Positions 267-16,666 of a stretch of 64,000 nt of DNA are shown here, in pieces. The DNA is from Leptolyngbya sp. SIOISBB (lineage in GTDB: Bacteria; Cyanobacteriota; Cyanobacteriia; Phormidesmidales; Phormidesmidaceae): positions 6,348,026 through 6,412,025 of the forward strand of contig JAAHII010000001.1 of the NCBI GenBank assembly GCA_010671905.1, in the 5' to 3' direction. Each line of letters starts with the position of its first letter. The first letter of the stretch is position 1. The notes under the pieces are model-generated. The model had not been told where the DNA came from. It saw nothing but the letters and a program-made list of their open reading frames with translations, and searched no databases. Both the position numbers and the translations under genes were made by a program.

Positions 267-352
267 CTGAATCGCCATTCAAGTTTTAAGCCGCCAGGGA
301 ATGCCGGAAGCTCCCCCCTGGCGGTTGTCCCCGTTTAAAGGACAGGTTAATT

Positions 353-2128: not shown

Positions 2129-2162
2129 ACTGGGGCACATTAAACAGCTATGCCAACGGATT

Positions 2163-2200
2163 TCCTGACCGCTCCTACATTCCGGGGCGGTTTTTTGTTG
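2163..2200 (+). terminator. Rho-independent terminator after membrane operon
   Basis: A short GC stem (accgc ... gcggt) is followed by tttttt. Its right half and U-tract are nearly identical to the terminator at 2566-2600 (ggggcggttttttgttgg in both), so the two ends appear duplicated from one ancestral gene end. Confidence 0.65.
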
Positions 2201-2232
2201 GGTTAGTCGCGATTTATGGCGGATGCTCGATA

Positions 2233-2550
2233 ATGGAGTCAGCAACAGTGGCACCCATGAGTGAAGAACGCTTTGACCACATCGAAAACCGTCTAGACCG
2301 AGCTGAGGCGCTGCTCGTCAGTACGGGTGAGATGATTGCCCGCGTCGCTCGCCTGTCAGAGGTCAACTCTCAGCAGATTGAGAGCAATTCCCGCGCCATC
2401 ATCGATCTAAATCGCACCATGGCTGATTTAGCTCTACGGTCAGTCAATGACCGCGCCGAGCTTGAAGAATGGCGTCGCACTACCCAAGCCGCGCTCGATA
2501 AGATAGACCGCGTGCTTGACTACCTGATGCAGCGCGACAGTAATGACTAA
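2233..2550 (+). CDS. Coiled-coil protein (105 aa)
   Basis: A soluble, almost wholly helical protein with heptad-like spacing (ERFDHIENRLDRAEALL near the N-terminus) and a C-terminus ending KIDRVLDYLMQRD. No membrane segment is evident. Translation may begin at ATG 2233 or at ATG 2257 (MSEERF). Similar small coiled-coil genes occur twice more in this element (13399-13680 and 17911-18147), both with a membrane segment, and such genes commonly accompany cyanobacterial integrases. The partner and function are unknown. It lies between two near-identical terminators and so is probably a single-gene unit. Confidence 0.6.
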   Translation: MESATVAPMSEERFDHIENRLDRAEALLVSTGEMIARVARLSEVNSQQIESNSRAIIDLNRTMADLALRSVNDRAELEEWRRTTQAALDKIDRVLDYLMQRDSND

Positions 2551-2565
2551 GGTTGCTCCAGCTCC

Positions 2566-2600
2566 CTTTAACCGCCTCACCACACCGGGGCGGTTTTTTG
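2566..2600 (+). terminator. Rho-independent terminator
   Basis: Stem aaccgcc / ggcggtt with a loop of about 12 nt, followed by tttttt. It ends the coiled-coil gene and may also serve the convergent minus-strand frame that stops at 2606. Confidence 0.75.
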
Positions 2601-2605
2601 TTGGC

Positions 2606-2788
2606 TTAACGCAGGCGATCGCGCCGTCTCAGCGCCTCTAGAATCGCCAATCGATAGGTATAGGACAAACTCTCAAAGATGCTGCTTTTCGATGCATGTT
2701 TCTTGACCAACCGGGCACTTTCTTCACGACTGCCCGTAATCGCATTGAGCAAGGCATCCCCGTTTCTCCTGACTTGAAACACATACAT
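2606..2788 (-). CDS. Possible small hypothetical protein (60 aa)
   Basis: A basic 60-residue frame, helical in its second half (SLSYTYRLAILEALRRRDRLR-like), convergent with the coiled-coil gene and stopping 6 bp from the shared hairpin. No family is recognised. The bidirectional terminator argues for a real gene; the short length and lack of a clear ribosome-binding site argue against it. Confidence 0.3.
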   Translation of the reverse strand: MYVFQVRRNGDALLNAITGSREESARLVKKHASKSSIFESLSYTYRLAILEALRRRDRLR

Positions 2789-3432
2789 CGTTGGCGGTGT
2801 TCAGATTCAGGTAAAAGTCGTCCTCTCTACCGCTAAAACTCGCCTTGTTCCTGAGCTTAGGGCTTCTTGTTTGCGAGCCGTTACAGTTAGGGATTGGTTG
2901 AGAAGTTTTGGATCACATCTGAAAACAGGACATTATTGCCCACAATGATGCGGACGTTATCCATTTGGTCAATGGTGGTTGCAAATAGACCAATCTCATG
3001 GATTGTGCCATACCCGAATCATAGTCCAGAGGGGTGGTGAATACACCTTTTCGATAGTACTCATGAATGTACTTCGCCAAAGTGCACACCACTATAGTCA
3101 CAGTAATGTCACATTTAACCTCTATCGTAAAGAGAATTCTTGTCAGCTATGTCGCTTCCTTTTAAAGGCAGTTGCAAGTTGGAGTTTTTGATTCTTTCAT
3201 ATGGAATTCGAGATTTCTACTGTGTTTCACAGCTGGAAGTAAGCCTATAAACTCCTGTCAGGATATCTGATGTAAGACAAGATTTCTGGATGTCTTCGGA
3301 AAAGTTTGAATCGATTGAGTATATATCAAATCTCTTCTCATTTCACACCAATTGACTTGTTCTTAAAAGTCTTACTGATCGCGTTCAGTTAACCGAGGTA
3401 TCTTTTTCGAAAACCTTTGATTAATTTCCTGT
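2789..3432. other. AT-rich intergenic stretch, no supported gene
   Basis: This 640-bp stretch is clearly more AT-rich than the DNA to its left. The open frames in it are short and overlap on both strands, with no start signals or recognisable residues. It marks the change of base composition that continues through the GGDEF-EAL gene, and may be flank carried in with that gene. Confidence 0.5.
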
Positions 3433-3444
3433 GTGGTTCCTATC

Positions 3445-6057
3445 ATGAACTCTGATTTTGGCAAGATTGATTTCTCATATTTTTTGTCTGAGGCTTTACT
3501 TGATTCAGTTGACAATGGAGTTTTGCTCTTCGACAAGATTAGAGGCTTGATAAAGTACAATTCACTATTCTTGGAGCTTTGGGAAGTTCCTTCGTGTTTG
3601 GTAAAGCTAGAAAAAGAGAATGAATTACTAGCCTTTATCTCGGAGAGACTTGTTAGCCCTCAAAGCTTCATCGATACATTTATCTATCTTTGTGGCCACC
3701 CAGAAGCAAAAATCACAGAGGATTTACCTCTTAAGGATGGAAGGTTTTTTGAGCTTTCCTCCAAACCTATGATGTTGAATGATGAAATAGTCACAAGAGT
3801 GTGGCTGTTTAGAGATATTACAGTCCGTAAGACCTCAGAAGTGAATCTCAAGAATAGTGAGGAACGATTTTCATTGGCCATGCACGGAGCCAATGATGGA
3901 TTATGGGACTGGGAATTGGAAACAGATGAGGTCTATTATTCGCCCCGTTGGAAAAGTATGTTGGGGTATACAGAGAATGAGCTTGATGGAAATTTAGAAA
4001 CTTGGAAAAGTATAGTTCACCCAGAGGATAGAGATATTGTTCTATCCAAAGTCAAAGAATATGCTTTGGGGAAACAAGATTCATTCGAAGTAGAAATGCG
4101 AATGCAGCACCGGGATGGACATGAAATTTCTGTTCTATCACGTGCATTTCTTGTAAAGCGAAATTCTGATGGAAAAGCCGTTCGCCTAGTTGGTACTCAC
4201 GTCGATATCACCGGTCGCAAAGAAGCAGAAGATTTTGCTAATAAACATGCCGAAATTTTAGAAATGATTGCAACGGGTAAGTCCGCCCATGACATCTACG
4301 ATGAGATCGCATTAATGTATGAGGTACGTCATCCTGGCATGCGATGTTCAATGCTTGAATTACATGATGGCAGGCTGATGCATGGTGGGGCACCCAGTTT
4401 GCCTAAGGCCTATTGTGAGGCGGTTCATGGTTTGAAAAATGGTCCTGATGTTGGCTCATGCGGTACATCCACCTATACCGGAAAACGGGTTCTCGTTGAG
4501 AACATTGAGACAGATCCGAAGTGGGCAAAAATAAAGCACGTGGCTTTGCCCCATGGCATGCGTTGTTGCTGGTCTGAACCCATCAAAAACTCTTCAGGTA
4601 AGGTGTTGGGTGCATTTGGGATGTATTACAATCATCCGGCATTACCAAATGAAGCAGAGTCCAATGATCTCAAGTCAGCAGCAAGGTTAGCTGGCATTGT
4701 GATGGAACGGGACCAAGCTCAAAAGCGTATCCGTGAGTTGGCCTATACTGATGACCTCACAAAATTGCCTAACCGCGCTAGCTTTTTTCTGAATCTTGAG
4801 AACTCAATCAATGCATTTGGCCAACATAAAAAACGTTTGGGTCTTCTGTATATTGACTTAGATAATTTTAAAAGCGTGAATGACAGTCTGGGACATAATG
4901 CCGGGGACATCTTACTTAAAGAAATTGCTAACCGACTGAAAAGTATTTGTCGTAAGACTGATTTCACTGCACGCTTGAGTGGCGATGAATTCTGTCTCGT
5001 AGTTGAAAATGTAGAGGATACTTATACCGCTACTGGTCTTGTTGCTCAGCGTTGTCTTGAAATGATATCAAAGCCAATTGAGTTGTTAGGCAGAAAATTC
5101 ACACCCGCCTGTAGTATCGGCATTGCTCATTATCCAGACGATGGGAAAGACCTAGCCAAGCTGATCAGGGCGGCGGACATCTCACTGTATGCGGCCAAAG
5201 AATGTGGCAAAAATCAGTATGTTTTTTATAAACCCGAGCTAACTCTTAAAATGGAATATCGCTTTCAAGTTGAGCAAAATCTAAGAGAAGCCGTTGAACA
5301 GCAAAGATTATCTCTCGTCTATCAACCCCAGGTTCAGATTAATACAGGGGAAATAGTTGGTGTCGAAGTCCTATCTCGCTGGCATCATCCACGGCTCGGT
5401 CAAGTTTCGCCACTTGAGTTTATTCCCATCGCCGAAAGAACTGGCATGATTAAACCGCTTACTGAGTGGGTGTTGAAAACGGCTTGTCAACAATCTGTTG
5501 CTTGGAAGAAGGCGGGATTCCCCAAACTGTGTACCGCAGTCAATATTTCTCCTAGCCATCTTCTTGATCCGGATTTTGTCTCGATGATCGAACGCATTAT
5601 TGATGAAACCGGCATGGTTCCTTCGGAACTGGAGCTGGAGGTTACTGAGCACGCTTTCCAGACGAATCAACAGAACTTGTCAATTTCCAGAGATTTAAAG
5701 TCTCTAGGCGTTTCGCTGTCAATTGACGATTTTGGGACTGGTTATTCCTCTTTTTCTTCTCTCAAATATATTCAATTTGACTATCTCAAGATTGACAAAT
5801 ACTTCATTGATGAAATGCTGGTTGATCACAAGTCAAAACTCTTGGTTGGCGCCATGATAGAAATGGGGCATAACCTAGACCATGGCATTATTGCTGAAGG
5901 TGTTGAGACAATAGAGCAGTGTCATATGCTCCAGGATCTGGGTTGTGAAATTGCACAAGGAAATTTTTTTAGCAAACCCATCACTGCAGATGAATTTTCA
6001 AGGCTTATAAAGGATAGAAATCCAATCAGAAATCAAAGAAATCTTCAGTTGATTTAG
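3445..6057 (+). CDS. PAS-PAS-GAF-GGDEF-EAL cyclic-di-GMP signalling protein
   Basis: A soluble bifunctional c-di-GMP regulator. From the N-terminus (counting from GTG 3433) it has a PAS-like segment (about 10-130), a PAS/PAC domain (about 145-260), a GAF domain (about 270-425), a GGDEF domain (about 435-600) and an EAL domain (about 615-865). The cyclase motif is SGDEF rather than GGDEF. RKTD five residues upstream fits the inhibitory I-site. The phosphodiesterase motif is EVL, followed by DDFGTGYSS and EGVET, so metal-binding residues look retained. There is no membrane segment. I prefer ATG 3445; GTG 3433 is possible. The gene is AT-rich compared with its neighbours and has only a short C-terminal tail. 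It looks like cargo inside the integrated element, unlinked to any partner. Confidence 0.93.
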   Translation: MNSDFGKIDFSYFLSEALLDSVDNGVLLFDKIRGLIKYNSLFLELWEVPSCLVKLEKENELLAFISERLVSPQSFIDTFIYLCGHPEAKITEDLPLKDGRFFELSSKPMMLNDEIVTRVWLFRDITVRKTSEVNLKNSEERFSLAMHGANDGLWDWELETDEVYYSPRWKSMLGYTENELDGNLETWKSIVHPEDRDIVLSKVKEYALGKQDSFEVEMRMQHRDGHEISVLSRAFLVKRNSDGKAVRLVGTHVDITGRKEAEDFANKHAEILEMIATGKSAHDIYDEIALMYEVRHPGMRCSMLELHDGRLMHGGAPSLPKAYCEAVHGLKNGPDVGSCGTSTYTGKRVLVENIETDPKWAKIKHVALPHGMRCCWSEPIKNSSGKVLGAFGMYYNHPALPNEAESNDLKSAARLAGIVMERDQAQKRIRELAYTDDLTKLPNRASFFLNLENSINAFGQHKKRLGLLYIDLDNFKSVNDSLGHNAGDILLKEIANRLKSICRKTDFTARLSGDEFCLVVENVEDTYTATGLVAQRCLEMISKPIELLGRKFTPACSIGIAHYPDDGKDLAKLIRAADISLYAAKECGKNQYVFYKPELTLKMEYRFQVEQNLREAVEQQRLSLVYQPQVQINTGEIVGVEVLSRWHHPRLGQVSPLEFIPIAERTGMIKPLTEWVLKTACQQSVAWKKAGFPKLCTAVNISPSHLLDPDFVSMIERIIDETGMVPSELELEVTEHAFQTNQQNLSISRDLKSLGVSLSIDDFGTGYSSFSSLKYIQFDYLKIDKYFIDEMLVDHKSKLLVGAMIEMGHNLDHGIIAEGVETIEQCHMLQDLGCEIAQGNFFSKPITADEFSRLIKDRNPIRNQRNLQLI

Positions 6058-6427
6058 CCTGACCGCCTTAAAATGTCTTGGGTGGGCTCCCACAAAGATG
6101 AGCTATCAATAATATTGCTGAAGGGCCTCGATAGCTCCAAGGGCAGGCTTTTGTTGACCAAAGGCATCTAACCTTCATCGGTTCTATCTCGATCATTGAC
6201 GGTTTCTAGCCGGGAAACATCCTGAGACAAAGATGAATTCACCAGCGGAATTGTTTGACCAGAAGCAACATCCTCACTGGCTAGAAAAGCTTGGATATCA
6301 ACGATTTCAGCTTGGTTTCACCTAATTATGGAGGTTTTTGAACAACGCCCATCGTGACCAATCGCTGGCTTGGCAACGCTCCCAGGATAGTGACGATAAC
6401 GCCTCCCATCCCGTCCCCTAAGGACCT
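6058..6427. other. Intergenic stretch between convergent genes
   Basis: No gene is supported. An 8-bp inverted repeat (gagctatc ... gatagctc, about 6100-6137) follows the GGDEF-EAL gene and could be a weak terminator. The remainder shows no recognisable structure. Confidence 0.4.
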
Positions 6428-7114
6428 TTAGTTTTCGGTTTCTAGGAAACGGGCTTCCAAGGCTTCAACCTTCTGGTTTAACCCCTTGATAGCGGCCACC
6501 AGTTGCACGATGCACTGATTGACATTGACGTGTAGATAGCCACCCGGATCGGTCGTCACCAGGTCAGGGTTAATCGCCTGTAAATCCTGCGCAATGACGC
6601 CCAAATCGTTGTGTACGTTATCGAAGACATCGGTCATGGGGTTATCCCAATCGAACTCGACCAGGGGAATGTTGAGCAAGCCTTGCAGCGCTGCCGCCCA
6701 AAGCGCTTCGCTATCCCTGGTCACAATGTGGGTCTTTAACCGGCGGTCAGAAGCGTTCGAGAGCCAGCCCACCCAGGTCGCATCAACCTGGACGTAAAGC
6801 GCCGTGCCATTCCACTGAAAGTATTTGCAGCGTCCATCAGTATCCATTACCGGCACTTCCCCAGCGGTGGTGCTGCTCACCCCTCTAACTCTCAAATGAT
6901 TTCTGCCAGCGCCCGCGACCCATCGAGAAATCGTGTGACCATGACTCACCGGCGCATAGCTGTGGGAGTGCTGCGCCGGGGCAAACGTGTTGCCAAAATT
7001 GCCAATTGCATTCGTGTTGGCCGTCACCTCATTCTCGATGGCGTCTAAATCCTCATCAGTGAGAAAACCGTACTGACCTAAATCAACAAAGCGAATCGGG
7101 TTAGAGATCGGCAT
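6428..7114 (-). CDS. Tail-fibre-like protein with C-terminal S74 intramolecular chaperone
   Basis: A phage-type receptor-binding or fibre protein. The N-terminal ~120 residues contain a His-rich collar-like stretch (QHSHSYAPVSHGH) and beta-rich sequence. From about residue 120 there is a peptidase S74 / chaperone-of-endosialidase domain: SDRRLKTHI, then FDWDNP, then GVIAQDLQAINPDLV, and a C-terminal coiled coil ending QKVEALEARF. In this family the SD pair at the domain start is the self-cleavage site and the coiled coil drives trimerisation. It is the last gene of a minus-strand operon, 2 bp after its upstream neighbour, as expected for fibre genes at the end of a tail module. At 228 residues it is short for a fibre, so the shaft is minimal. 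Confidence 0.85.
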   Translation of the reverse strand: MPISNPIRFVDLGQYGFLTDEDLDAIENEVTANTNAIGNFGNTFAPAQHSHSYAPVSHGHTISRWVAGAGRNHLRVRGVSSTTAGEVPVMDTDGRCKYFQWNGTALYVQVDATWVGWLSNASDRRLKTHIVTRDSEALWAAALQGLLNIPLVEFDWDNPMTDVFDNVHNDLGVIAQDLQAINPDLVTTDPGGYLHVNVNQCIVQLVAAIKGLNQKVEALEARFLETEN

Positions 7115-7116
7115 AG

Positions 7117-8667
7117 CTAGATAAACGTAGTTTGGGTGAACTCTGGGGGCGCCTCATCGGGCCAGAGCGGAATGGTGAAATTGTTGTCTGTAAAGGCATT
7201 CCCCTCAGCATCGATGTAGCTGCTGCCATCCGGGTCAAAACGCCGGACCAGTAGCTTGAGCCGGTACGGATACATGCGCGTCATCCGCTTGCGCACGCGA
7301 ATATCACGGTCCTTCTCCTGAGTGACCGAGAGGGTCACAATGTCAGCCGTCGAGAGCGTCAAGAGGTCGCGTAACTTCTCCTCCGCTTCCAAAGCCGTCC
7401 CCCCATAGACTGCCATTTGCCGCCCATTGTCGAGATTGGCCGTGGCGCGAAACTCCCCCCAGTTGTAAGGCCGCACCGCGCGCTTGAGCTCTACCCAATT
7501 CACGACCTGTTCTAAATCGGGAATGGTGTAATCGGCATACCGGGCACGGGTGCCATCGGGTCGCCGGGTGGCTCTGCCAGGAATATCCTTGAACGTGATT
7601 GTGGCCTTGCGGCGGTGCGGTTGTGCCCGCAGGTAGTCCCCAATCGGCTGACCCACAATTTCACCCACATCGCGATTGCCCAACACCCTGAGATTGGTAA
7701 TCGCCTGCTGGGCACGCTCCTTCACTTCCGCTTCCGTGCCCTCGACATAGATCCGCTCATGGGGGCTTTGCACATCCGGAATGATGGTCACCGCCCGCGA
7801 TGCCGTCTGTCCTTTGCGGCCTTCCTGCAGCTTGGTTTGCTGGTAAGCGGTATCGAGTTCGTTGGCGATGACATAACCCGCCTCAATAAAGCTGTCAATG
7901 TACTCCTCAACGGCATTCTCGACAAAGGCCCGGATGCGGTCACTCTCAATGCGCTCAATCTGGGTTTCCACCTCCCCCGCAAAGGTTAAGGTTGGGGAAC
8001 CCTCTAACCCCCATTCATTGAGAATGAAATCCGCATTCTCCGGGCCAAAGTAAACCCGGAGGAGGTTGGGCGGCACGCGTTTAATCAACCCTCTCAATCG
8101 CTTGTAGCCTTCTAAAACCGTGTTGTTGGAAACGGTCGAAACGGTTTGAGTGATGGCCGATCTCAACACCGCCTGAATTTCGTCGATGGCTTCTGCCGTC
8201 GTGGCCCCGGCAATCGCCTTAGCTAACGTGGCCCCGCCAATCACCGGCACCGCCATCCCTAACCCGTAACCGACGCCAATCCCCGTCAGCCAGCCCAACC
8301 CGGCCCCCGTCGCGGCTCCCCAAGTCGAGAACAGCGCAATCGTGTTGTTAGCCTGCAAAGCCGTGATTTCGACATCGGTCGAATTCCAGTCAAAGACTGC
8401 TATCCGGGCAGCACTGTTGACAATCCAGCCCCAAATCCGCCCGAAGTTGATCTTCGAGAGCCCCCATTGAATCAAGTCCCACGCGCCCTGGGCTAGCCAG
8501 CCCGTGCCCCGTGAGAGAAATGAGATGACTCGGCCCACGATGCCATCTGGTCCCTGGTCCACATCGCTAAAGGCCAACGACGTTTCAATTAGCCGGGTAC
8601 CTTTATCCCCGACGACCTCACGGACGGCCCGACTAGCCAGACTTTTGACGGCAATGCTAATGGCCAT
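7117..8667 (-). CDS. Element structural-block protein with glycine-rich hydrophobic segment (516 aa)
   Basis: No family was recognised. Residues ~117-155 form a glycine- and alanine-rich hydrophobic stretch (GAGLGWLTGIGVGYGLGMAV-like) that could insert in a membrane. A helical region follows (about 155-290), then a mixed alpha/beta C-terminal half with basic runs (VRKRMTRMYPYRLKLLVRR). The gene sits 9 bp after the 270-residue gene and 2 bp before the S74 fibre gene, so it is co-expressed with them. Position next to the fibre and the amphipathic glycine segment suggest a virion or secretion-type component, perhaps membrane-penetrating. This is inference from context only. Confidence 0.6.
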   Translation of the reverse strand: MAISIAVKSLASRAVREVVGDKGTRLIETSLAFSDVDQGPDGIVGRVISFLSRGTGWLAQGAWDLIQWGLSKINFGRIWGWIVNSAARIAVFDWNSTDVEITALQANNTIALFSTWGAATGAGLGWLTGIGVGYGLGMAVPVIGGATLAKAIAGATTAEAIDEIQAVLRSAITQTVSTVSNNTVLEGYKRLRGLIKRVPPNLLRVYFGPENADFILNEWGLEGSPTLTFAGEVETQIERIESDRIRAFVENAVEEYIDSFIEAGYVIANELDTAYQQTKLQEGRKGQTASRAVTIIPDVQSPHERIYVEGTEAEVKERAQQAITNLRVLGNRDVGEIVGQPIGDYLRAQPHRRKATITFKDIPGRATRRPDGTRARYADYTIPDLEQVVNWVELKRAVRPYNWGEFRATANLDNGRQMAVYGGTALEAEEKLRDLLTLSTADIVTLSVTQEKDRDIRVRKRMTRMYPYRLKLLVRRFDPDGSSYIDAEGNAFTDNNFTIPLWPDEAPPEFTQTTFI

Positions 8668-8676
8668 GAGTCCCCC

Positions 8677-9489
8677 CTAAAGCTTGTCAAAGCCCTCGTG
8701 CAAATCTTCAATGACTTCCGGCTGAATCGACTGCCCCCGGTTGTGCTTGCCGGTATCGCGGTTCATCCGCTGCAGCCAATCGCGCCACTGTTCCTTGTTG
8801 GGGATGGAGAGCGCCTCATCCTGAATCATGGTTTCAATCGCCCCCAGCAATCGCCCTGACTCGCTGGGCTTCATGTAGAAAGAACTCTTGATGATGCCCG
8901 CTGCGAATTCCAGCTTGGCCAAGATGTCTAACACCGATTCCTTCGACTCATCCTCATGGACCGTGATGCGCTTTTTCGACTCCCTTAAAAAGCGGGGTAG
9001 CGACTTGGATGCTTCTAAGTCAAAGTTGTAATCAATCGGCACTTCTTTCGCGTTGGCTTTGTAGCCTAAAAATGAGGCATTCGCCTTCGCGTAGGATTGC
9101 CCAATGAGCGCCGCATTCTTCGTCGAAATCACCTCAGGAATCAGCCGTAATAGAATCTCGGTGATGAGGTCGCCATTGATTTCCGACTGATAGACCAAGC
9201 CAAACAATTCGGCCAATGTCTCCGCCACATTGGGCAGATTGAGTTCTACTTCCTGATTCCCTTCTGTCGTCGGGTCCGAGTCCTTAATCTTGATTTTGAT
9301 GGGGAATTGACCCATCACCGCATCCAGGTTTCGCGCCGTCCATTCCCACAACTGGGCATGGTTTTCGAGCGCAATTTCCTTGTCATCTTCCTGGATGAGT
9401 AACGGCGGCGCTTTCACCGGAAACTCATCCACGCCTAGCCGGGTATAGATGAGTTCCAACAGTTCTAGCGTTTCATCACAACAGCTCAT
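8677..9489 (-). CDS. Hypothetical protein of the structural block (270 aa)
   Basis: Unknown soluble, acidic, largely helical protein with two cysteines right after the start (MSCCDETLELLELIYTRLG). I chose ATG 9489 because it overlaps the upstream stop (ATGA at 9486-9489), the same coupling as elsewhere in this operon; a longer frame from 9546 would read through the end of the upstream gene. There is no signal peptide or membrane segment. Its place between two other unknown genes and upstream of a fibre gene suggests a structural or assembly role. Confidence 0.65.
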   Translation of the reverse strand: MSCCDETLELLELIYTRLGVDEFPVKAPPLLIQEDDKEIALENHAQLWEWTARNLDAVMGQFPIKIKIKDSDPTTEGNQEVELNLPNVAETLAELFGLVYQSEINGDLITEILLRLIPEVISTKNAALIGQSYAKANASFLGYKANAKEVPIDYNFDLEASKSLPRFLRESKKRITVHEDESKESVLDILAKLEFAAGIIKSSFYMKPSESGRLLGAIETMIQDEALSIPNKEQWRDWLQRMNRDTGKHNRGQSIQPEVIEDLHEGFDKL

Positions 9490-10676
9490 ATCGGGCCTCG
9501 GTAAGGGTTGATTGCTGGGGGGCGCACCGGTGCCGGGTCGGCACAATCCGTACTGACTTGATAGAGCGCCAAAGGGGGACTGCCGTCGAAAAAGTCACGG
9601 TACCCAAAGGCGGGCGAGGTTTGCCCGACATCAGTTTGGTTGTCCATGATGCCGACATAACTGGCGTAGTAATCGGGGCCAAACGCGGACTTAACCCGCT
9701 CTATCAACAAATGGATGGACTCATTGGCGCTGCGTCGGTCACAGTTGAAATCCTGAAAAAAGACGAAGTTAAATAACTGTCTTTTCTTCCTCATGAGGTA
9801 TCTGAACGTGACGTTAACGCCATCCGTCCAAGTACTTTCGCCGCTGTCTTCAAAGTCAGGATTTCGAGTCATGAAAATCTGATTGAAGCGATAGCCAATC
9901 CGGTTCAATTTGTCCCATTTGGGCTCGTTATCGCTGGTCCAGGGACTAACATGACTCCGGTTTGCTAAGGGGATATCAAAATAAACCCCTGGCACCGCTT
10001 GAATGTTGGCGCTCCTCACGCCTAGGTAAAAATCGCGCCATTGGTCATAGGTTTCGGTGGTGGCGTCAGGGTCACTATTCAACCGGAGTGGATAGGTGAT
10101 TTCGGCAATGAAACCAACGCTGACCACAGCTCGGGTGTGGCCTGCGACCGGCTTAGCTCTGATATAGGCCAAGTTAAGGTCTTCGTACTGCTCTGGTTCT
10201 GGCGGTTCTGGTTCCTTGATTTGGCAATCAGGATGACTGCTACGGCGGCAATAGATGCCAGAGGGGCCAGAGATGCCCAAAAACAGTGGGTCAATCTGAA
10301 TGCAGGTTTCACAGCCCCCAACGGTAACTTTTGCGCCTATCCCGATTTCCCGAATGCTGAACGGGTCAACTACATTCCCCCCGCAGTAAGGGCTATTGGG
10401 CCACAGGTCGCAGTTGCGGGGGTCGGCTCCCTCCGAAGGAACGCCATACCAATTGGAATCGCCAATTTGCTCTAGCGATTCATTCACGCTGGGATCCAGG
10501 TCAAAGGCCAGGGGGGCGAGGGGGTTAATGGCGTTGGCGACATTGGCCACATCAATCGCCGTTTCAGCCCAGTCTGCCCCGCGCTCTAAATCCCGCAGTC
10601 GCCGTCTGGCAACGGTGTCCGGACCCAGATCGGGGAGGTCTTGTTTGACCCTAAATCGGACGGGAGTAATACTCAT
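9486..10676 (-). CDS. Hypothetical Cys-containing protein of the structural block (396 aa)
   Basis: An unrecognised protein. The N-terminal ~70 residues are helical, followed by a central region with several Cys (CDLWPNSPYCGGN, GGCETCIQI, IYCRRSSHPDC) that could bind metal or form disulfides. A Pro/Glu-rich linker (EPEPPEPEQYED) leads into a beta-rich C-terminal domain of about 200 residues rich in Tyr, Phe and Trp. Both ends are coupled: the start overlaps the stop of the 54-residue gene and the stop overlaps the start of the 270-residue gene. A linker plus aromatic beta-domain would fit a virion surface protein, but this is not proven. Confidence 0.6.
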   Translation of the reverse strand: MSITPVRFRVKQDLPDLGPDTVARRRLRDLERGADWAETAIDVANVANAINPLAPLAFDLDPSVNESLEQIGDSNWYGVPSEGADPRNCDLWPNSPYCGGNVVDPFSIREIGIGAKVTVGGCETCIQIDPLFLGISGPSGIYCRRSSHPDCQIKEPEPPEPEQYEDLNLAYIRAKPVAGHTRAVVSVGFIAEITYPLRLNSDPDATTETYDQWRDFYLGVRSANIQAVPGVYFDIPLANRSHVSPWTSDNEPKWDKLNRIGYRFNQIFMTRNPDFEDSGESTWTDGVNVTFRYLMRKKRQLFNFVFFQDFNCDRRSANESIHLLIERVKSAFGPDYYASYVGIMDNQTDVGQTSPAFGYRDFFDGSPPLALYQVSTDCADPAPVRPPAINPYRGPI

Positions 10677-10837
10677 TCAGCCCCCGTCTGCTTGATAACG
10701 AGGGTGTTGTGGTACTGGCTGCGGGTCATATAGGCATATCGATACAGGTCATATTCCAGCCGTCCCATTGACCAGTTTTGCCGCAGTTCAAAGGGATAAG
10801 ACCGCTTGGGGGCAGCGCCCATAATCAGGCTTTTCAT
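10673..10837 (-). CDS. Small basic protein in the coupled operon (54 aa)
   Basis: This 54-residue frame begins MKSLIMGAAPKRSYPFELRQ and is rich in Tyr and Arg, with an RLEYDLYRYAYMTRSQYHN-type central part. It fills the only gap in an otherwise continuous operon. Its ATG shares a base with the upstream stop (TGATG at 10835-10839) and its TGA overlaps the next ATG (ATGA at 10673-10676), which is strong evidence for translation despite its size. Its role is unknown; small Tyr/Arg-rich proteins in tail modules can be connectors or chaperones, but no residue here proves that. Confidence 0.6.
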   Translation of the reverse strand: MKSLIMGAAPKRSYPFELRQNWSMGRLEYDLYRYAYMTRSQYHNTLVIKQTGAE

Positions 10838-11646
10838 CAGAAGAACTCCGCAATCGAAAGGGCGGTATTAGCCTCAGTGCTAATGGCGGATATCAGCCCC
10901 CGGTAAAGGTTGGTGCGATTGATTTCATAAGCGCCGCCGCCCGGATAAAGCACAATGCCATCGTCTGGTGTGGCCATGGGCTGATAGCTGAGCGTGACCG
11001 TGGCCGTCTCTGAACGATTGACAATCACCGCCTGTTTTCTCACCGGAGCTGCCGCCAAGATCACCTCGCTACCGGTGCCGACCGTGGCGGTACGCTCAGC
11101 ACTCTGGGTAATCAGATCACCTTCACTCGGTAAGCTGGTCACCTCTTCCCGTGCCGCGCCAAAGATATTGACACTGTCCCCGGCCTGCATCGTCCCGAAA
11201 CCTACATCCAGTACGCGGACCCCCAACCTGGCGTCATTGGCCATCGCGAAAGCCGGTTGATTGCTCAGGTAAGAGAGCAAATCCACCACATAGAACGGCC
11301 TGCGGTTCAACAGCGAGAAATTAAACAGCGACATCCAACCGCTGTACGTGTTGCGGATGAGCAACTCCAGCTCATAGCGCGCGGAGCCATACTCCAGCTC
11401 TCGAACGATTTCCGCTTTCGAGGTGCGTGACGTGCCGAGCGGGATATCAGGAATCTCGCTCTCGGGCAGCGACCGGATATCAATGCGGGCTCTCAGGTCA
11501 GTGATGAAGCCGTAAAACTTCAATGACTGAGTCATGTCGAAAGGACTGACATAACCACTGTCATAAATCACCGTAATTTGACTCGCATTTGCCGCCGTGA
11601 TGGGCTCAATGATTTGTACAGAACGGTTGTAAGTTTCTTGAGTCAT
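10837..11646 (-). CDS. First protein of the minus-strand structural operon (269 aa)
   Basis: Unknown protein with a beta-rich, moderately hydrophobic composition and no signal or membrane segment. The C-terminal ~90 residues (VGTGSEVILAAAPVRKQAVIVNRSETATVTLSYQ in part) resemble a beta-sandwich of the kind seen in phage decoration or neck proteins; that is a visual impression. It starts the minus-strand operon, divergent from the 112-residue gene, with a palindrome in the shared promoter region. It is coupled by a one-base overlap to the 54-residue gene downstream. Confidence 0.6.
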   Translation of the reverse strand: MTQETYNRSVQIIEPITAANASQITVIYDSGYVSPFDMTQSLKFYGFITDLRARIDIRSLPESEIPDIPLGTSRTSKAEIVRELEYGSARYELELLIRNTYSGWMSLFNFSLLNRRPFYVVDLLSYLSNQPAFAMANDARLGVRVLDVGFGTMQAGDSVNIFGAAREEVTSLPSEGDLITQSAERTATVGTGSEVILAAAPVRKQAVIVNRSETATVTLSYQPMATPDDGIVLYPGGGAYEINRTNLYRGLISAISTEANTALSIAEFF

Positions 11647-11683
11647 CGTGTGGGATTAGTTTGTCTCAATCCTACTCAATTTT

Positions 11684-11706
11684 GTTAGAACCCTTAGGGT
11701 TCTAAC
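11684..11706. promoter_or_regulatory. Perfect palindrome in divergent promoter region
   Basis: A 10-bp perfect inverted repeat, gttagaaccc / gggttctaac with a 3-bp centre, lies in the 153-bp gap between the two divergent operons (starts at 11646 and 11800). Position and symmetry fit an operator for a dimeric regulator controlling both. There is no U-tract on either side, so a terminator is less likely. Confidence 0.55.
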
Positions 11707-11799
11707 CACAACTTACCCGTACTGGTGATGAGTGAGAACACTGAGGGTACAACTATGATCGAAGCGTAGGCTTAAACCACTCTCAGGAGACTTTTAAAC

Positions 11800-12138
11800 A
11801 TGGCTGATCTAACCCTTCAAAACCTGGTCGATAAACTACCGGCTGGCACTGCGACAGAAACCGCTGATGATGTGAACATTAGCCTCAAGACGCTGATGGG
11901 CGAGGCTTCTGTACAATTGGCCGATGAGAAGGTGGCAGAATTCTCCACCAAGTTGCTGGGCGCGGCGGCTTCGGCTCAGGTCGATTACAATGCCGCGAAT
12001 GAGACTAGTTTGACGGGCTATCCTAACCCTACTTTTGGTACCCCCACAGACGATGGCAACGGCAATATCTTTTCACGTCGGACTCATACAGTTTCTGTTC
12101 AAGTCCCTGTTGATGTAGATGAAACAGTGGGGGTATAA
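11800..12138 (+). CDS. Hypothetical small structural-type protein (112 aa)
   Basis: Unknown, acidic protein. The first half is helical (LQNLVDKLPAGTATETADD...), the second is Thr- and Val-rich, ending in alternating Val residues (TVSVQVPVDVDETVGV). There is no signal peptide. It has a good Shine-Dalgarno aggaga 10 bp upstream of ATG 11800, and its own hairpin follows the stop. A separate terminator and strong initiation signal suggest high-level expression, as for a major structural subunit, but homology was not recognised. Confidence 0.65.
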   Translation: MADLTLQNLVDKLPAGTATETADDVNISLKTLMGEASVQLADEKVAEFSTKLLGAAASAQVDYNAANETSLTGYPNPTFGTPTDDGNGNIFSRRTHTVSVQVPVDVDETVGV

Positions 12139-12153
12139 ATCCGGTTTCAATTA

Positions 12154-12178
12154 GGGGCTAATAGCAACCATTAGCCCC
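12154..12178 (+). terminator. Perfect stem-loop after the 112-residue gene
   Basis: A 9-bp perfect stem, ggggctaat / attagcccc, with a 7-nt loop lies 16 bp after the stop at 12138. There is no strong U-tract, so it may attenuate transcription or protect the mRNA 3' end rather than fully terminate. Confidence 0.6.
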
Positions 12179-12206
12179 CATTAGCGCACATTAATCAGGT
12201 AGGAAA

Positions 12207-12797
12207 ATGGGTAAGTATGATAATAAGCGCCCGGTTTCGGTCGTGCCCTTTAATGGGTCAAGTATTCGATATGGGTTTCGGACAAATATTGATGCAGGCG
12301 ATGGCGCAACCTTAGGGCATGTTGATGCCAACGACAGCAACCAGCAGGGGTTAGTCTTTGGGGCCAATTCTCCCAAACCGGCCAGGGCCAGCCGCAAACG
12401 GGCGACCGGGACGACTTCCAGCTTTATCGATTGGAATGCGATTACCGCTGCCCGTCAGGCAGGCTGGTCAACCGGTAAGGCCAGCATTCGACGCGGGGGC
12501 ACCACGGCGAAAACGCGAGTGGTGGCGGTGACGTTCCGGGGCATTACTTATGCCTGGAACATGCCGAACGATACCTTTGCCAATATTGGGGCGGGCGACT
12601 TGCAGACCCTAGGGGTGAGGGTGACGGACACCAATGACACCGATTTGGTATTCGGGGTCGATTCTCCGAAGCCCCCCAAAGCGGTCTTTGATGCCGGGGA
12701 GAATATCTATTCGACGTTCTATGACCCCACTAACGGCACCCTGCCGGAAGGCTGGTCGAGCGCGTCTAACAGTCAAGATCCACAGCAGGCACCTTAA
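12207..12797 (+). CDS. Two-repeat hypothetical protein (196 aa)
   Basis: The protein contains two related units, each ending in an LVFG-(A/V)-(N/D)-SPKP motif (GLVFGANSPKPA near residue 50 and DLVFGVDSPKPP near residue 150), preceded by VDANDSN / VTDTNDT. The repeat unit of about 100 residues implies internal duplication. Between them is a basic Arg/Thr-rich stretch. No signal peptide is present. This duplicated architecture is unknown to me; the neighbours suggest a virion-like structural protein. It ends 4 bp before the next ATG. Confidence 0.6.
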   Translation: MGKYDNKRPVSVVPFNGSSIRYGFRTNIDAGDGATLGHVDANDSNQQGLVFGANSPKPARASRKRATGTTSSFIDWNAITAARQAGWSTGKASIRRGGTTAKTRVVAVTFRGITYAWNMPNDTFANIGAGDLQTLGVRVTDTNDTDLVFGVDSPKPPKAVFDAGENIYSTFYDPTNGTLPEGWSSASNSQDPQQAP

Positions 12798-12801
12798 CGT
12801 G

Positions 12802-13083
12802 ATGCAGTACAGCTCTAGCCCGTTGATTTTGCCCGGTCATCCGTTGTTCCATCGGACGACAGCGACCACCGTGCCGCCCGATTGGCGGCACCAAGCAGAG
12901 TCGATGGGCCAGCTGCCTAACTTTGTCGTTCATGCGGAGACCGGTTTGATGCGACCGGCGAACCATGAGGAGTTGATGGGTTACCTCTATGAGGGCGAGT
13001 ATGACCAGCGACAGGCGGCGATCTCAGCTCAGCCAGAGGTCGAACATTGGGACTTAGACCGTGGCTTGGTTGAGCGTTGGTAG
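12802..13083 (+). CDS. Hypothetical protein (93 aa)
   Basis: Unknown small protein beginning MQYSSSPLILPGHPLFHRTT. I place the start at ATG 12802, 4 bp after the upstream stop; the upstream extension of the frame would run inside the 196-residue gene. The tail is acidic and aromatic. It overlaps the next gene by 23 bp, so it is part of the same coupled series. Confidence 0.5.
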   Translation: MQYSSSPLILPGHPLFHRTTATTVPPDWRHQAESMGQLPNFVVHAETGLMRPANHEELMGYLYEGEYDQRQAAISAQPEVEHWDLDRGLVERW

Positions 13084-13393
13084 TGCGATCGCCACAAATC
13101 GTGGTGAATGGGTGAGGGTGGGCGATCTTCAAAGTAATATTTTGCGGCTGCGTTACACCTTTGCGGGTAACGCGCCTTCCAGGGTGATTTACGGGGCACT
13201 GCGGGAACGCTTTGCCGCTAATTTGTACAATTCCCGCTGGTATACCCTCTATCCCAAGGTTGGCGGGGCTGAAGTGCTGGTACTGGAACCGATACCGGCT
13301 TTTCAGGGCACGATTTACGCAACTCGGGGCATCGAAGTCAAGCAGCGCGGCAATGCGCCTGATTGGCAGATACAGATCGACCAATGGTTATAA
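13061..13393 (+). CDS. Hypothetical protein, GTG start (110 aa)
   Basis: Unknown protein, probably beta-rich (LRLRYTFAGNAPSRVIYGAL), starting at GTG 13061 inside the end of the previous gene. There is no membrane segment. The overlapped GTG start and the downstream membrane genes place it in the same operon. Function not recognised. Confidence 0.5.
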   Translation: MAWLSVGSAIATNRGEWVRVGDLQSNILRLRYTFAGNAPSRVIYGALRERFAANLYNSRWYTLYPKVGGAEVLVLEPIPAFQGTIYATRGIEVKQRGNAPDWQIQIDQWL

Positions 13394-13398
13394 GTGAC

Positions 13399-13680
13399 AT
13401 GGACGAACTGACGATCGCGGCCACAATTTTAGGCATTCTAGTGAGCGGAACTAGCTTGTTGACCGGGTTTGTAGGGTATCTAGCTTGGCAACGGAGTAAG
13501 ACGCGCAAGGAATATGCCGCCGAAAGAGACTTTAACCACCTCAAGCGCAACTATGAATCGCTGACCGTCAATGTTGAGGGGCTCTGGCGACAGACAGAAG
13601 AATTTCACCGTGACGCGCAACGGCAACTAGATCGCATTGAGCTAAGGTTATCCGACGGGAATACTAATGCCGGTGAGTGA
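13399..13680 (+). CDS. Membrane-anchored coiled-coil protein
   Basis: The short N-terminal hydrophobic segment (LTIAATILGILVSGTSLLTGFVGYLAW) is followed by a basic turn and a long coiled coil (about residues 40-90). This is the topology of phage XhlA-like or spanin-type small membrane proteins. Possible starts are ATG 13363, 13384 and 13399; I prefer 13399 because it avoids a long overlap. Its stop overlaps the GTG start of the next gene (GTGA at 13677-13680). A decayed homologue, including this junction, occurs at 23381-23627, so the gene belongs to a recurrent mobile-element backbone. Confidence 0.65.
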   Translation: MDELTIAATILGILVSGTSLLTGFVGYLAWQRSKTRKEYAAERDFNHLKRNYESLTVNVEGLWRQTEEFHRDAQRQLDRIELRLSDGNTNAGE

Positions 13681-13967
13681 GGCTTTACCCCATGCTTGCG
13701 CCACTTCTAAATGACTTACTGACCGAGATCATGCGCTACCCCGCAGTGGCGATCTCACTAGTGTTGATCATTGGGGTTCTGCAGGCGTGGGCGTGGTATC
13801 GCATCCTCAAAAAAACAGAGCTGCCCGCCGGTTACGTCCTGGCGGGTAGTCTCTGCGCGTTGGGGGCGATCTTCTTTGGGCCGTTGATGCTTGTTCCCTT
13901 GGCGATCGCTGCCTTGGTGCCCTGGCCAGTCAGTCAGCCGCCATACCTGAAGCGTCGATCGCATTGA
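13677..13967 (+). CDS. Small membrane protein, two to three TM helices (96 aa)
   Basis: Hydrophobic protein with helices near residues 20-40 (AVAISLVLIIGVLQAWAWY) and 52-82 (YVLAGSLCALGAIFFGPLMLVPLAIAALV, counted as one or two). It starts at GTG 13677, overlapping the stop of the coiled-coil membrane gene, so the two are coupled. A coiled-coil membrane protein followed by a two-helix membrane protein resembles a lysis or holin module, an inference from topology only. The start of this gene is also recognisable after the pseudogene copy at 23.6 kb. Confidence 0.55.
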   Translation: MRLYPMLAPLLNDLLTEIMRYPAVAISLVLIIGVLQAWAWYRILKKTELPAGYVLAGSLCALGAIFFGPLMLVPLAIAALVPWPVSQPPYLKRRSH

Positions 13968-14406
13968 GCAAAAGTCTAAGAGTTAGTCGGTTGCAGTTTT
14001 GAAACGTCACAGATAATAGCTTTCTGAAGCGAGCCTCACTCAAGTCTTACCAGCTACGTATATCGCTCCTGATGTATGGCAAAGCAAAACCAAAACGGTA
14101 TCAGTTTGTTTCCCGGATGCTCACGGTTGCCACTTCTCTCAAGGTTCAGAATCGCCTGGTACTGGAAGTGATAATTCATGCTTGTCGAGCAGCACACTTA
14201 GGACAGGAGCCCCCTTTCTTGTTGCCAGAAGCTGAAATACCACCTATGCAGACATCGTTTCTGTTGCTTTTTCAAGCTTTATGAGGAACGGATACGAATA
14301 GCCAATAGTATAAATACAATTCGCAAATAAATCCTGAACATGAATCTGGATCAAGTTCAGATTTTTTGATAAAACCAAAAGGAATAATATTCAGATCATC
14401 AAACCT
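13968..14406. other. Intergenic stretch, no well-supported gene
   Basis: Base composition falls towards AT-rich before the TPR gene. One 70-residue frame (14072-14284) lacks a ribosome-binding site and recognisable sequence. Aaggaataa lies 19-25 bp upstream of ATG 14407. Confidence 0.4.
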
Positions 14407-16068
14407 ATGAAGAGAAAAATACTTGGGCTAGACCCTGATAAGTTGTTTGCCGATGATATATCTCTTCGTCTATGGCAAGCGATATTTCCATTTACCTTAA
14501 TGGTGCTTGCTGGGTTTTTATTTATTTTTCTCTATACCTTTAAATCCTTCGGCATTGATACCACACATAGTGAAAGATTTGGCACGTTTGTCTCAGTTTT
14601 TGGTCTTGCATCCATCGTCGCTGGTGCCTCTTTGCTAGTTGGGGGATTACTTGGTTTTTTGTTCGGTGTGCCTCGTACTGAGGATAATGAATTCATTCAA
14701 AAACGTGATGATGATATTTCTTTCTCCAAAAAAGAAAACGAAAAATCTTTGACGCGTGTATCACGGACAAATATAAGAGCCAATACCAATTTAGAACAAA
14801 TATCAGATTGGTTAACGAAAATATTGGTTGGTGTTGGCCTCACTCAAATTAAACCAATTCTGGAGTTTATTTATGCGCAAGTTGTGGTCAGACTGGCACC
14901 TGGGTTTGAATTGGCTGGCAGTACAAGAGACGTCAATGAAGGATTAACGATAGGTGTTCTGGTTTATTTTTCCGCTTCTGGTTTTTTTATTGGATATGTT
15001 TGGGCTCGTGTCTATTTAACGGAGAGTTTGGAGTATGGATATTCCATCAAAAAGGTTAAAGGAGAAGTGGAAGAAGAAAGAATTAAGCGTGATAGGATTC
15101 AAACGATTAGGCAATTAATTGATGCAATTCCAAGTGCCGATCTTGTTAATATCTATGCTTATCAACAAAAGACTGACCGAAAGAAAGAACAATATGAATA
15201 TGTTAGGGAAGGGATAAATAAACTTCTTGGAAATCTTCCAGGAAGGGATGACGAAACACTTCCTGGCAACCTTGATGATTTGATGACAGCTATTTATGAA
15301 GACATTCCTTATGACAGGGTTTTTGATTTCTTGAGATCAAGAGACTATATCAATTTAGGTGTCTTATTGGAGTTAAATGATTCATACAAGATGGCGGTGG
15401 ATTTTTACAAGAAAGCCATCAGAATGAATAAGTATTCATATAGGGCTCATAATCAATTAGGCTTGGGTTTCTTAAGGCTTGGAAAATATAACGACGCCAT
15501 CGAATCCCTTAATAAAGCAATTGATATTAATTCCAAGAATTATACGGCTTGGCTTAATAAGGGATATGTCTTAATCCAGGAGGTTCTAGCTAGAGAAGCC
15601 GTACTTTCTGAGCAAAAAAAACAAGCTTTTCTTGAGGAAAAGAAAGTTTTAGCAGAAGAAGCAAAAGAATATGTTGATAAGGCAATCAACTTAAGTATAA
15701 ATGCTACACCAATAGCATATGTAAATAAAGGGTGTGCGTTGTCGCTTTTGAGCGAATATTATCGAGAGAAGAATTCAAATGAAAAAGTAAATGAGCTTTC
15801 TAAAGAGGAGCTTGAATGCTATGAAAAAGCACTAGAAATGGATGAAGATTGCACCCTTGCCTGGTATAATTTTGCGTGCTATCACGCGACTCTTGCGCGC
15901 TACAGTGCGACTCCTGATGATCAAGAATCGGCATTGAAATCGGCATTTAATTGTCTAGAAAAATCCATTCAAATTAATAGTGACATGAAAGCTGTGGCTC
16001 AGGATGACTCTGACCTATCTAGCCTCAAAGACTATCCGGACTTTAAAGAATTGGTTTCTGAAGTTTAG
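14407..16068 (+). CDS. Membrane-anchored TPR protein, YEATS-associated-helix-like N-terminus (553 aa)
   Basis: The N-terminal half has three hydrophobic segments (about residues 22-48, 58-92 and 180-205). Between the second and third it carries a motif set, GFLFGVPR ... NTNLEQISDWLTKILVGVGL, which I associate with membrane proteins annotated as YEATS-associated or pYEATS proteins; this attribution is from memory. From about residue 310 the chain becomes tetratricopeptide repeats (GVLLELNDSYKMAVDFYKKA, then LGLGFLRLGKYNDAIESLNKA, and two or more diverged repeats). The TPRs face the cytosol and probably bind a partner. The gene is AT-rich compared with the element backbone and stands alone, so it is likely cargo. 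A signalling or conflict role is inference. Confidence 0.7.
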   Translation: MKRKILGLDPDKLFADDISLRLWQAIFPFTLMVLAGFLFIFLYTFKSFGIDTTHSERFGTFVSVFGLASIVAGASLLVGGLLGFLFGVPRTEDNEFIQKRDDDISFSKKENEKSLTRVSRTNIRANTNLEQISDWLTKILVGVGLTQIKPILEFIYAQVVVRLAPGFELAGSTRDVNEGLTIGVLVYFSASGFFIGYVWARVYLTESLEYGYSIKKVKGEVEEERIKRDRIQTIRQLIDAIPSADLVNIYAYQQKTDRKKEQYEYVREGINKLLGNLPGRDDETLPGNLDDLMTAIYEDIPYDRVFDFLRSRDYINLGVLLELNDSYKMAVDFYKKAIRMNKYSYRAHNQLGLGFLRLGKYNDAIESLNKAIDINSKNYTAWLNKGYVLIQEVLAREAVLSEQKKQAFLEEKKVLAEEAKEYVDKAINLSINATPIAYVNKGCALSLLSEYYREKNSNEKVNELSKEELECYEKALEMDEDCTLAWYNFACYHATLARYSATPDDQESALKSAFNCLEKSIQINSDMKAVAQDDSDLSSLKDYPDFKELVSEV

Positions 16069-16401
16069 CTGACACGGTATCGACAGTCACCGTCTGATAG
16101 ATTTATTAAGAGGCTAAGAAGCCGCATCGTTCTTAAGGTGTGAAAATCAGCAACATCCCCTCAGTCCACACCCACAGGAATTGCGCATCCATGCTCAGAC
16201 TCCCAGCAAATCAGTGCCACCGTTGCAAAACTCTACGATCCCTATCCCGGTAATGTTCTAGACCTGTGGAAGCTGTGTCATACTGATTTGGTTTTGGAAT
16301 GTCCCACATCAGAGGTGAGCCTCTTTGGAACTTGTTGAGTTCTGTACGGCTATTGATCAGAAGTGCATCTGAGACACTTTAAAACTAAAACCGTATTAGT
16401 C

Positions 16402-16453
16402 GGACTGAACCCTTTATGTAGTCGGTTCAAGTACGCCTCCTAGCATTGTTTCG
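16402..16453 (+). repeat. Degenerate att copy 1 (tRNA-Phe 3' half)
   Basis: The string from ggactgaa to cattgtttcg aligns along its length with att copy 2: ggactga, then gtcggttcaag and cgcctccta. Several anticodon-arm bases are changed, so it could not form a tRNA. It begins the cluster of tRNA-Phe remnants at this integration site. Confidence 0.6.
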
Positions 16454-16478
16454 ACCTCTATAATTGATTCAGAGTGTA

Positions 16479-16530
16479 GGACTGAGAATCCTCGTGTCGG
16501 CGGTTCAAGCCCGCCTCCTGGCATCGTTTC
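16479..16530 (+). repeat. att copy 2 (tRNA-Phe 3' half)
   Basis: Contains ggactgagaatcctcgtgtc, then a complete T-arm (ggcgg-ttcaagc-ccgcc) and acceptor 3' strand (tcctggca). It differs from copy 3 by a single base within the tRNA-derived part. It is a likely attL/attR of the integrase-bearing segment 16.5-18.2 kb. Confidence 0.75.
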
Positions 16531-16666
16531 AGCCATTTTTCGAGGAAGCAAATTTAAGCCCTATTTTAATTCCCAGTTTTCTTTAAAACAGTGAAGCTCT
16601 TACACTGCAATAAGCTCAAAGGACGAAGATGGCGTTTCGAATTCCCCTGGGGGTATTGACGATATA

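Follow-up and report, generated by a model that had tools for sequence, protein, structure and literature searches.

Twelve genes in two divergent blocks

We describe a group of twelve open reading frames (ORFs) in a 64,000-nucleotide window of the cyanobacterium Leptolyngbya sp. SIOISBB (contig JAAHII010000001.1, positions 6,348,026 to 6,412,025) and the 22.5-kb element, integrated at a tRNA gene, to which they belong. The ORFs form two blocks 153 bp apart, one on the minus strand (6428-11646) and one on the plus strand (11800-13967); most are referred to below by the label of their protein cluster (C0, C1 and so on; Table 1). In the minus block, ATGA overlaps occur at 9489/9486 and 10676/10673 and a 1-nt overlap at 10837, and in the plus block a 23-nt overlap at 13083/13061 and a GTGA overlap at 13677-13680. 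Two starts are corrected here: the ATG at 9489 begins the third minus-strand gene, which encodes 270 amino acids (aa) and has the ATGA overlap, and 13399 is the most likely start of the fifth plus-strand gene. The arrangement is as the initial annotation had described it, twelve genes in two divergent, overlapping blocks, and it is conserved in relatives. Since nine of the twelve ORFs have relatives in other genomes and the gene order is conserved, the twelve ORFs are more than chance.

The fibre gene at one end, also seen in that annotation, carries a Peptidase_S74 domain (PF13884) at residues 122-187 (E 6.6e-12; 46 bits against a cut-off of 22). By family match the domain would be a C-terminal intramolecular chaperone, with putative self-cleavage; no full-length relative of the fibre ORF was found among the element loci compared. 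In a Pfam and PHROGs scan of ten of the twelve proteins (all except the 93-aa C6 and the 96-aa ORF) the fibre gave the only convincing family match, in line with the earlier statement that nothing else resembled a recognised family. C3 matches phrog_30212, whose function is not described, weakly (E 0.0035 for the window protein and 2.3e-4 for one family member), and its C-terminal part aligns with stand-alone genes of about 105 aa. The two parts of C0 are fused elsewhere, all 18 matches to the N-terminal profile outside the window (15 distinct loci) also matching the C-terminal profile. C26 has matches in 11 loci (the window and one duplicate locus counted), and a leucine-zipper match in its coil scores under the Pfam cut-off. 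The 96-aa ORF matches a 66-aa ORF of locus L018 weakly (E 0.004 for one comparison), and for the 54-aa ORF phmmer and a C24 profile gave nothing significant. The C26 and 96-aa genes could be holin-like, a guess from their shape only.

The element in tRNA-Glu

The twelve genes singled out by the initial annotation are not the whole unit. They form one module of an element that is integrated at a tRNA gene and brings along an integrase as well as genes for replication and regulation. The tRNA-Glu(TTC) gene lies at 6342126-6342200 of the genome, and its 3' end plus downstream sequence recurs as an exact 60-bp repeat at window 16636-16695 on the plus strand, the right attachment site (attR); the left site (attL, G000:C1:6342180-6342239) lies 5.8 kb left of the window, and only one second copy of the repeat was found in the genome. 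From this repeat pair, at tRNA-Glu and at window 16636, the element measures 22,481 bp, window positions 1..16635 being its right 16.6 kb and the left 5.8 kb lying beyond the window. No convincing direct repeats were found close around 6428-13967, the actual ends lying further out. In a search for the empty site within the genus, none of the other five genomes matched the right flank, and the left flank found short matches only.

From left to right the element carries the integrase, the VapE-type gene, a 226-aa ORF, the Xre regulator, a membrane trio (299, 229 and 64 aa), a 105-aa ORF, the GGDEF/EAL gene, the twelve genes, the TPR gene and attR. The integrase, VapE and Xre genes are open and the att core is intact. 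The membrane trio has relatives in the same order in the element of genome G427, and the GGDEF/EAL and TPR proteins, which flank the structural genes, are probably cargo of the element. With its integrase and flanking att repeats in the window copy, and circles in relatives, the element belongs to the temperate integrative class.

Related elements in other cyanobacteria

A search with C3 found matches in 11 of 292 cyanobacterial genomes, the window's own genome counted. A C1 profile was positive in 35 of 386 genomes, 27 of them at E<1e-10 and eight weak and partial, and within the host's family in 20 of 63. The weak matches come from a protein of about 275 aa whose resemblance is to the C1 C-terminal half; it marks a sibling system, present on plasmids and chromosomes (L131, L132 and the weak C1 matches). 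Scanning named genomes turned up 29 loci, with Leptolyngbyaceae, Nostoc, Calothrix, Tolypothrix, Anabaena, Goleter and Okeania among the carriers.

For presence and order we ran iterated profiles, seeded with the protein clusters of complete elements, over all loci and removed loci with identical C1, which left 62 loci, many of them truncated by contig ends; C0 is present in 52 of these, C2 in 36 and the integrase in 25. C0 and C1 lie on the same strand and at most 3 kb apart in 52 of the 52 loci with both (within 200 bp in 38), and where they are further apart other genes lie between them, often C2-C6-C4. C6 follows C2 within 200 bp in all 35 loci with both, C6 and C4 are within 600 bp in 26 of 27 loci, C4 and C1 within 200 bp in 12 of 28, and in 26 of 30 C3 precedes C0 by at most 1.5 kb. 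The gene order sought by the initial annotation in other cyanobacteria thus exists, and no recognisable head genes accompany it. Neither of the outcomes that it had named as contrary to its view arose: the proteins have no clear matches to ordinary head or tail genes, and the order is conserved.

In the relatives the core set of C0, C1, C2, C6, C4, C11 and C3, found together with a variable fibre, keeps a conserved order and is subject to purifying selection. Ratios of nonsynonymous to synonymous substitution rates (dN/dS, NG86) were 0.04-0.15 for C1, 0.06-0.19 for C2, 0.11-0.26 for C6, 0.11-0.28 for C4, 0.06-0.34 for C0 and 0.02-0.09 for C15, computed among relatives exclusive of the window for pairs with usable dS; these figures are rough, many dS values exceeding 1 and several saturated pairs yielding no ratio. 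Overall dN/dS among relatives is 0.02-0.34; these proteins are kept by selection. Both C2 and C1 are matched by one ORF of 785 aa on the chromosome of Nostocales HT-58-2 (L142:9209-11566), a fusion suggesting that the two proteins act together. Repeated DNA follows that ORF at about 12085-12910. Genome G014 has a related structural module twice, at separate sites of its chromosome (L094/L095), the two copies sharing 94% identity over about 7.6 kb.

Circular, tandem and integrated forms

Three states are seen among the relatives, namely integrated copies, tandem copies and circles of 12.5-20.8 kb. A 12,675-bp contig of genome G215 holds the whole gene set and has a terminal overlap of 127 bp, and it is therefore read as a 12,548-bp circle; a 19,415-bp contig of G429 closes likewise at 19,288 bp (terminal overlaps at L018 and L096). 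Such overlaps are usual for circular contigs, yet tandem repeats can also produce them. Two closed plasmids carry the gene set, NZ_CP064893.1 of Tolypothrix PCC 7601 (20,757 bp) and pMIC7113.08 of Allocoleopsis PCC 7113 (20,803 bp). In G427 an 18,288-bp contig is a permuted, 100% identical version of a chromosomal stretch of the same assembly, and the chromosomal copy lies between direct repeats of 50 bp that correspond to the 3' part of tRNA-Cys; the simplest reading is that circle and integrated form coexisted in one culture, assembler duplication being the alternative. Calothrix HK-06 has two tandem copies with a period of 20,327 bp whose identity begins inside tRNA-Phe, and Goleter apudmare has a tandem with a period of 18,006 bp. 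In Pantanalinema the integrase adjoins tRNA-Met, and in Tolypothrix brevis it adjoins tRNA-Cys.

The two closed plasmids share C0, C1, C3 and an annotated integrase with the window element. C1 is split in two in pMIC7113.08, where the C2 profile found no match, and NZ_CP064893.1 also holds C2, C4 and C6. Both differ from the window element in being episomal, with a putative Rep protein (read from sequence), a larger transmembrane (TM)/ATPase-type protein and no VapE relative found, and their structural genes are annotated as hypothetical. The sibling plasmids pHT582-2 and pHT582-1 of Nostocales HT-58-2 have the relative of about 275 aa and an annotated integrase, C11 also being present in pHT582-1; they differ in that the C-terminal half of C1 is a separate gene, in the ParA/ParB genes of pHT582-2, and in size (15.6 and 37 kb).

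These forms bear on the possibility that the module is a remnant, that is, a structural cassette kept by the host after loss of the phage functions, for example as a DNA-free bacteriocin-like particle. The split C0 of the window, the interposed cargo genes and the decayed second element next door would fit such a history, but the open integrase, VapE and Xre genes, the intact att core and the circular relatives argue against it, and we consider it very unlikely.

Head, packaging and tail genes

The initial annotation reported no capsid, portal or terminase, and at the sensitivity of profile hidden Markov models (HMMs) this holds for the whole element. Eight elements contributed 109 proteins to a Pfam and PHROGs scan, which left aside small ORFs and several duplicates; no terminase, portal or capsid appeared among the best 25 of 41 and the best 25 of 107 families. 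Full lists for 61 function-unassigned proteins of three complete elements contained no head or packaging family; KGK was the only Pfam family in them, and of the seven PHROGs one is a minor tail protein and the other six have no described function. Among the 109 proteins, two hit PHROGs that bear the names minor tail protein, tail fibre and head decoration; one of the two is the fibre-type protein of G427. PADLOC over the 109 proteins returned seven families, of which five were either generic exonuclease/PDC matches or had no more than two members, at E 2.6e-6 or weaker.

Three identities had been proposed for the genes. A minimal tail-like particle finds no support beyond the fibre-type matches; no tube, sheath or tape-measure family is among the families listed, and the matches with tail or baseplate names are fibre-type proteins. 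The distal part of an unusual cyanophage comes nearest of the three, but the relatives seem complete at 12.5-20.8 kb without recognisable head genes. With Caudoviricetes the elements share the integrase, the Xre regulator and fibres of the S74 and collar types, as well as the endolysin of some relatives, and they differ in lacking matches to terminase, portal, HK97 capsid, tube, sheath and tape measure among the families listed.

The third identity is a satellite. An element of the P4/PICI or tycheposon kind would integrate and replicate itself but build no shell; it would ride in a helper phage's capsid or in vesicles and supply fibres and accessory proteins that change adsorption, the fibres retargeting the borrowed particle. 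Tycheposons are elements with a tRNA-targeted tyrosine recombinase and cargo that spread in vesicles or capsids. P4/PICI satellites and tycheposons share with our elements the tRNA integration, the tyrosine recombinase, the VapE-type primase and the cargo (here GGDEF/EAL and TPR), and the size of 12.5-22.5 kb and the lack of a recognised packaging enzyme fit as well. They differ in the conserved structural-type block, C0, C1, C2, C6 and C4 exceeding a satellite's needs by far, and no link to a resident tailed helper emerged with Terminase_6N. This family (PF03237) was found in only four of the 35 C1-positive genomes (G185, G278, G300 and G306; three of the 27 with E<1e-10), on contigs other than that of C1 or, in G306, 4 Mb away, so that 31 of 35 have no match; the cross-genome survey covered Terminase_6N only, other terminase families or an outside helper lying beyond it. 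In the host genome itself, none of Terminase_6N, TerL_ATPase (PF03354) and Phage_capsid (PF05065) found a match. We regard a satellite as unlikely, although it is an alternative to be taken seriously.

Predicted structures

The structure-based search asked for by the initial annotation was carried out for C1 and C2, for which AlphaFold2 (AF2) models were made. The C1 model (mean predicted local distance difference test, pLDDT, 72; predicted template modelling score, pTM, 0.38) has long helices in residues 43-284 followed by an alpha/beta half. The C2 model is confident (pLDDT 88, pTM 0.79), and at E 0.001 it had no match in BFVD (best 0.11) or PDB (best 2.3), the best VIA match reaching Z 2.5 over 41 residues. 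Profiles of C0 to C3 run against PDB sequences likewise gave nothing meaningful. A confident predicted model without neighbours is the strongest single hint of novelty that we have, a new fold not thereby being proven, and C2 is a candidate capsid protein by elimination only.

A divergent member of a known group, Caudoviricetes or the double-jelly-roll viruses, might have hallmark genes too diverged for profile HMMs. Folds were predicted for C1 and C2 alone, which leaves some room for this, and the phage-type fibres and an FtsK/HerA-like P-loop protein in one relative (L032) agree with it. Double-jelly-roll tailless phages have a major capsid protein with that fold and a packaging ATPase of the FtsK/HerA type. 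Small tailless prophages below 16 kb are, according to one report (PMC11630473), similarly small, integrated and easily overlooked; our elements differ from them in their cyanobacterial hosts and in C2, the one confident model searched, which had no significant double-jelly-roll match in BFVD, PDB or VIA. Set against this absence of matches for C2, and against the 61 proteins that yielded no head or packaging family, we give a divergent member of a known group very little credence.

A possible particle module of a temperate virus-like element

We give an even chance to the interpretation that the twelve genes make up the particle module of an integrative element that is temperate, virus-like and equipped to build a particle of its own. 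The half of the element that serves the life cycle is ordinary (integrase, regulator, primase and tRNA site); the structural half is not. Phage-type parts recur in the family, namely the S74 fibre, the fibre of G427, the endolysin of Calothrix HK-06 and VapE. In Calothrix HK-06 an Amidase_3 protein (E 3e-29; PHROGs endolysin 2.8e-50) comes after a small TM protein, and the S74 fibres together with the endolysin of some relatives speak for particles released by lysis. In such a life cycle, the Xre regulator would hold the element quiescent; upon induction the integrase would excise it and VapE would replicate the excised circle. The divergent operons would then make a particle whose shell may be built from core proteins such as C2, C1 and C0 in an unrecognised architecture, the S74 fibre would trimerise and bind the next host, and the small membrane proteins, with the endolysin in some relatives, would release the particles.

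Several observations weigh against this interpretation. No capsid, portal or packaging enzyme is recognised at profile-HMM sensitivity, and the matches of the C1 model (BFVD best E 4.6e-3 with a TM-score of about 0.17; long-helix matches in PDB_VIA, best Z 8.3) were rejected as generic helical. Amidase/endolysin relatives occur in just three distinct loci. A circular or excised form of the window copy was not seen, and a tRNA lies in the fetched stretch at only three of 22 loci checked, so that tRNA integration is established for some relatives only, the other 19 having none. In INPHARED, searches with C1, C2 and C3 gave no match, and scans of IMG/VR with C1 and with the sibling protein, which rely on short exact peptide patterns, gave no relative; a virus producing particles in large numbers could be expected to appear in both catalogues. 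Finally, no P-loop was found by motif search in the membrane-trio genes of the window element, G427 and Tildeniella, and the larger TM proteins of L176, L143, L145 and L153 have deviant P-loop-like stretches only. A canonical P-loop was seen only in the TM protein of L032, with FtsK and HerA scores that are weak and under the Pfam cut-offs, and hence no packaging ATPase is common to the family.

The same genes bear on a different reading, an integrative plasmid moved by an FtsK/TraB-like or other membrane-anchored ATPase, in which the operons would encode a cell-surface contact or adhesion apparatus and no virion. Conjugative elements of the actinobacterial type use an FtsK/TraB-like DNA pump. 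The circular plasmids in PLSDB, the sibling plasmid with ParA/ParB, the membrane trio and the P-loop proteins just named are compatible with transfer of this kind. The window's trio differs from a TraB-type element in having no P-loop, the S74 and collar-type fibres and the endolysin are phage parts, and PLSDB types the four plasmids as non-mobilizable; we therefore judge such a plasmid distinctly improbable.

Returning to the virus-like element, a bolder form of the proposal is possible, although we would lean against it as it stands: an undescribed and widespread lineage of temperate viruses of filamentous cyanobacteria, 12.5-22.5 kb in size, with a C0/C1/C2 virion unlike known capsids and packaging without a terminase or a conserved ATPase. 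The elements may be an overlooked kind of temperate virus, and catalogues would miss such viruses because almost no structural gene resembles known ones. The sibling 275-aa protein found no match in INPHARED, and neither did the TM/ATPase-type protein of pMIC7113.08 by tblastn. VapE has phage helicase/primase matches and hits 597 phage records, none over 80% of its length, as expected for a widely shared replication protein. Some relatives do seem to lie within the sequences behind PHROGs, as hinted by the links of C3 (phrog_30212), of Calothrix C2 to phrog_26653 (weak, 2.6e-4) and of the pMIC7113.08 TM/ATPase-type protein to phrog_29669 (4.7e-39), the latter two families also being without described function; the claim that nothing is catalogued is weakened accordingly. 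As far as titles and the opening lines of abstracts go, no paper found describes these elements, in a collection with few subscription journals and without bioRxiv. A putative Nostoc prophage expressed in the dark is reported in one study (PMC12691664).

If particles are made, the catalogues searched lack a common virus family of filamentous cyanobacteria, one that would add a novel type of capsid and raise a new question of packaging. If none are made, about ten conserved genes of unassigned purpose, together with phage-type fibres, are spread from one cyanobacterium to another by a circularising element, which would be equally odd. Closed plasmids exist in at least two named carrier strains, which makes the question directly testable.

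Table 1. Features of the integrated element, from left to right (window coordinates unless stated otherwise)
Feature	Position	Strand	Remarks
Tyrosine integrase, 363 aa	L030:7336-8427; 6342345-6343421 in genome		Outside window; 39% identity, E 1e-80, to Calothrix element integrase
VapE-type primase-helicase protein, 785 aa	VapE domain 6344916-6345539		Outside window
226-aa ORF			Between VapE-type gene and Xre
Xre regulator, 96 aa			Left of and outside window
299-aa membrane protein	353..1252	+	No P-loop motif; relative in L089, E 1.4e-19
229-aa multi-TM protein	1245..1934	+	Relatives in L089 (1.1e-36) and L098 (5e-81)
64-aa TM protein	1934..2128	+	Relatives in L098 and L089
105-aa ORF	2233..2550	+	In element
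GGDEF/EAL protein with PAS and GAF domains	3433..6057	+	Between attL and attR; domains assigned from sequence
S74 fibre protein, 228 aa	6428..7114	-	C-terminal Peptidase_S74 chaperone (by family match); PF13884; PHROGs tail fibre
C1 core protein, 516 aa	7117..8667	-	N half predicted as long helices, C half as alpha/beta
C0 core protein, C-terminal part, 270 aa	8677..9489	-	ATGA-coupled to N-terminal part
C0 core protein, N-terminal part, 396 aa	9486..10676	-	Cys/Pro-rich
54-aa ORF	10673..10837	-	No significant relative
C3, 269 aa	10837..11646	-	Relatives in other genomes
C11, 112 aa	11800..12138	+	Matches in 25 loci, window and duplicate loci counted
C2 core protein, 196 aa	12207..12797	+	Two similar halves
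C6, 93 aa	12802..13083	+	Adjoins C2 downstream
C4, 110 aa	13061..13393	+	GTG start
C26, 93 aa	13399..13680	+	One TM segment, then coil (hydropathy)
96-aa ORF	13677..13967	+	GTG start; two to three TM segments (hydropathy)
TPR membrane protein	14407..16068	+	Inside element; TPR from a domain scan of a set including the protein

Neighbouring sequences

To the right of the element, a decayed second element occupies the same tRNA-Glu site (window 16636-23358). It retains a frameshifted integrase (16844-17907) and a C-terminal fragment of VapE (22906-23358), which are 79-94% and 91-94% identical in DNA to the corresponding parts of the first element, and between them lie a MerR-like regulator and a P-type ATPase, as read from their sequences. 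A stretch of about 200 bp at window 14101-14295 recurs at four other sites of the genome with 78-79% identity and is perhaps a transposon remnant. The same genome encodes a second S74 protein (G000:C1:4538147-4538320; L001, L031), and a 2945-aa ORF lies on the minus strand at window 31831-40668.

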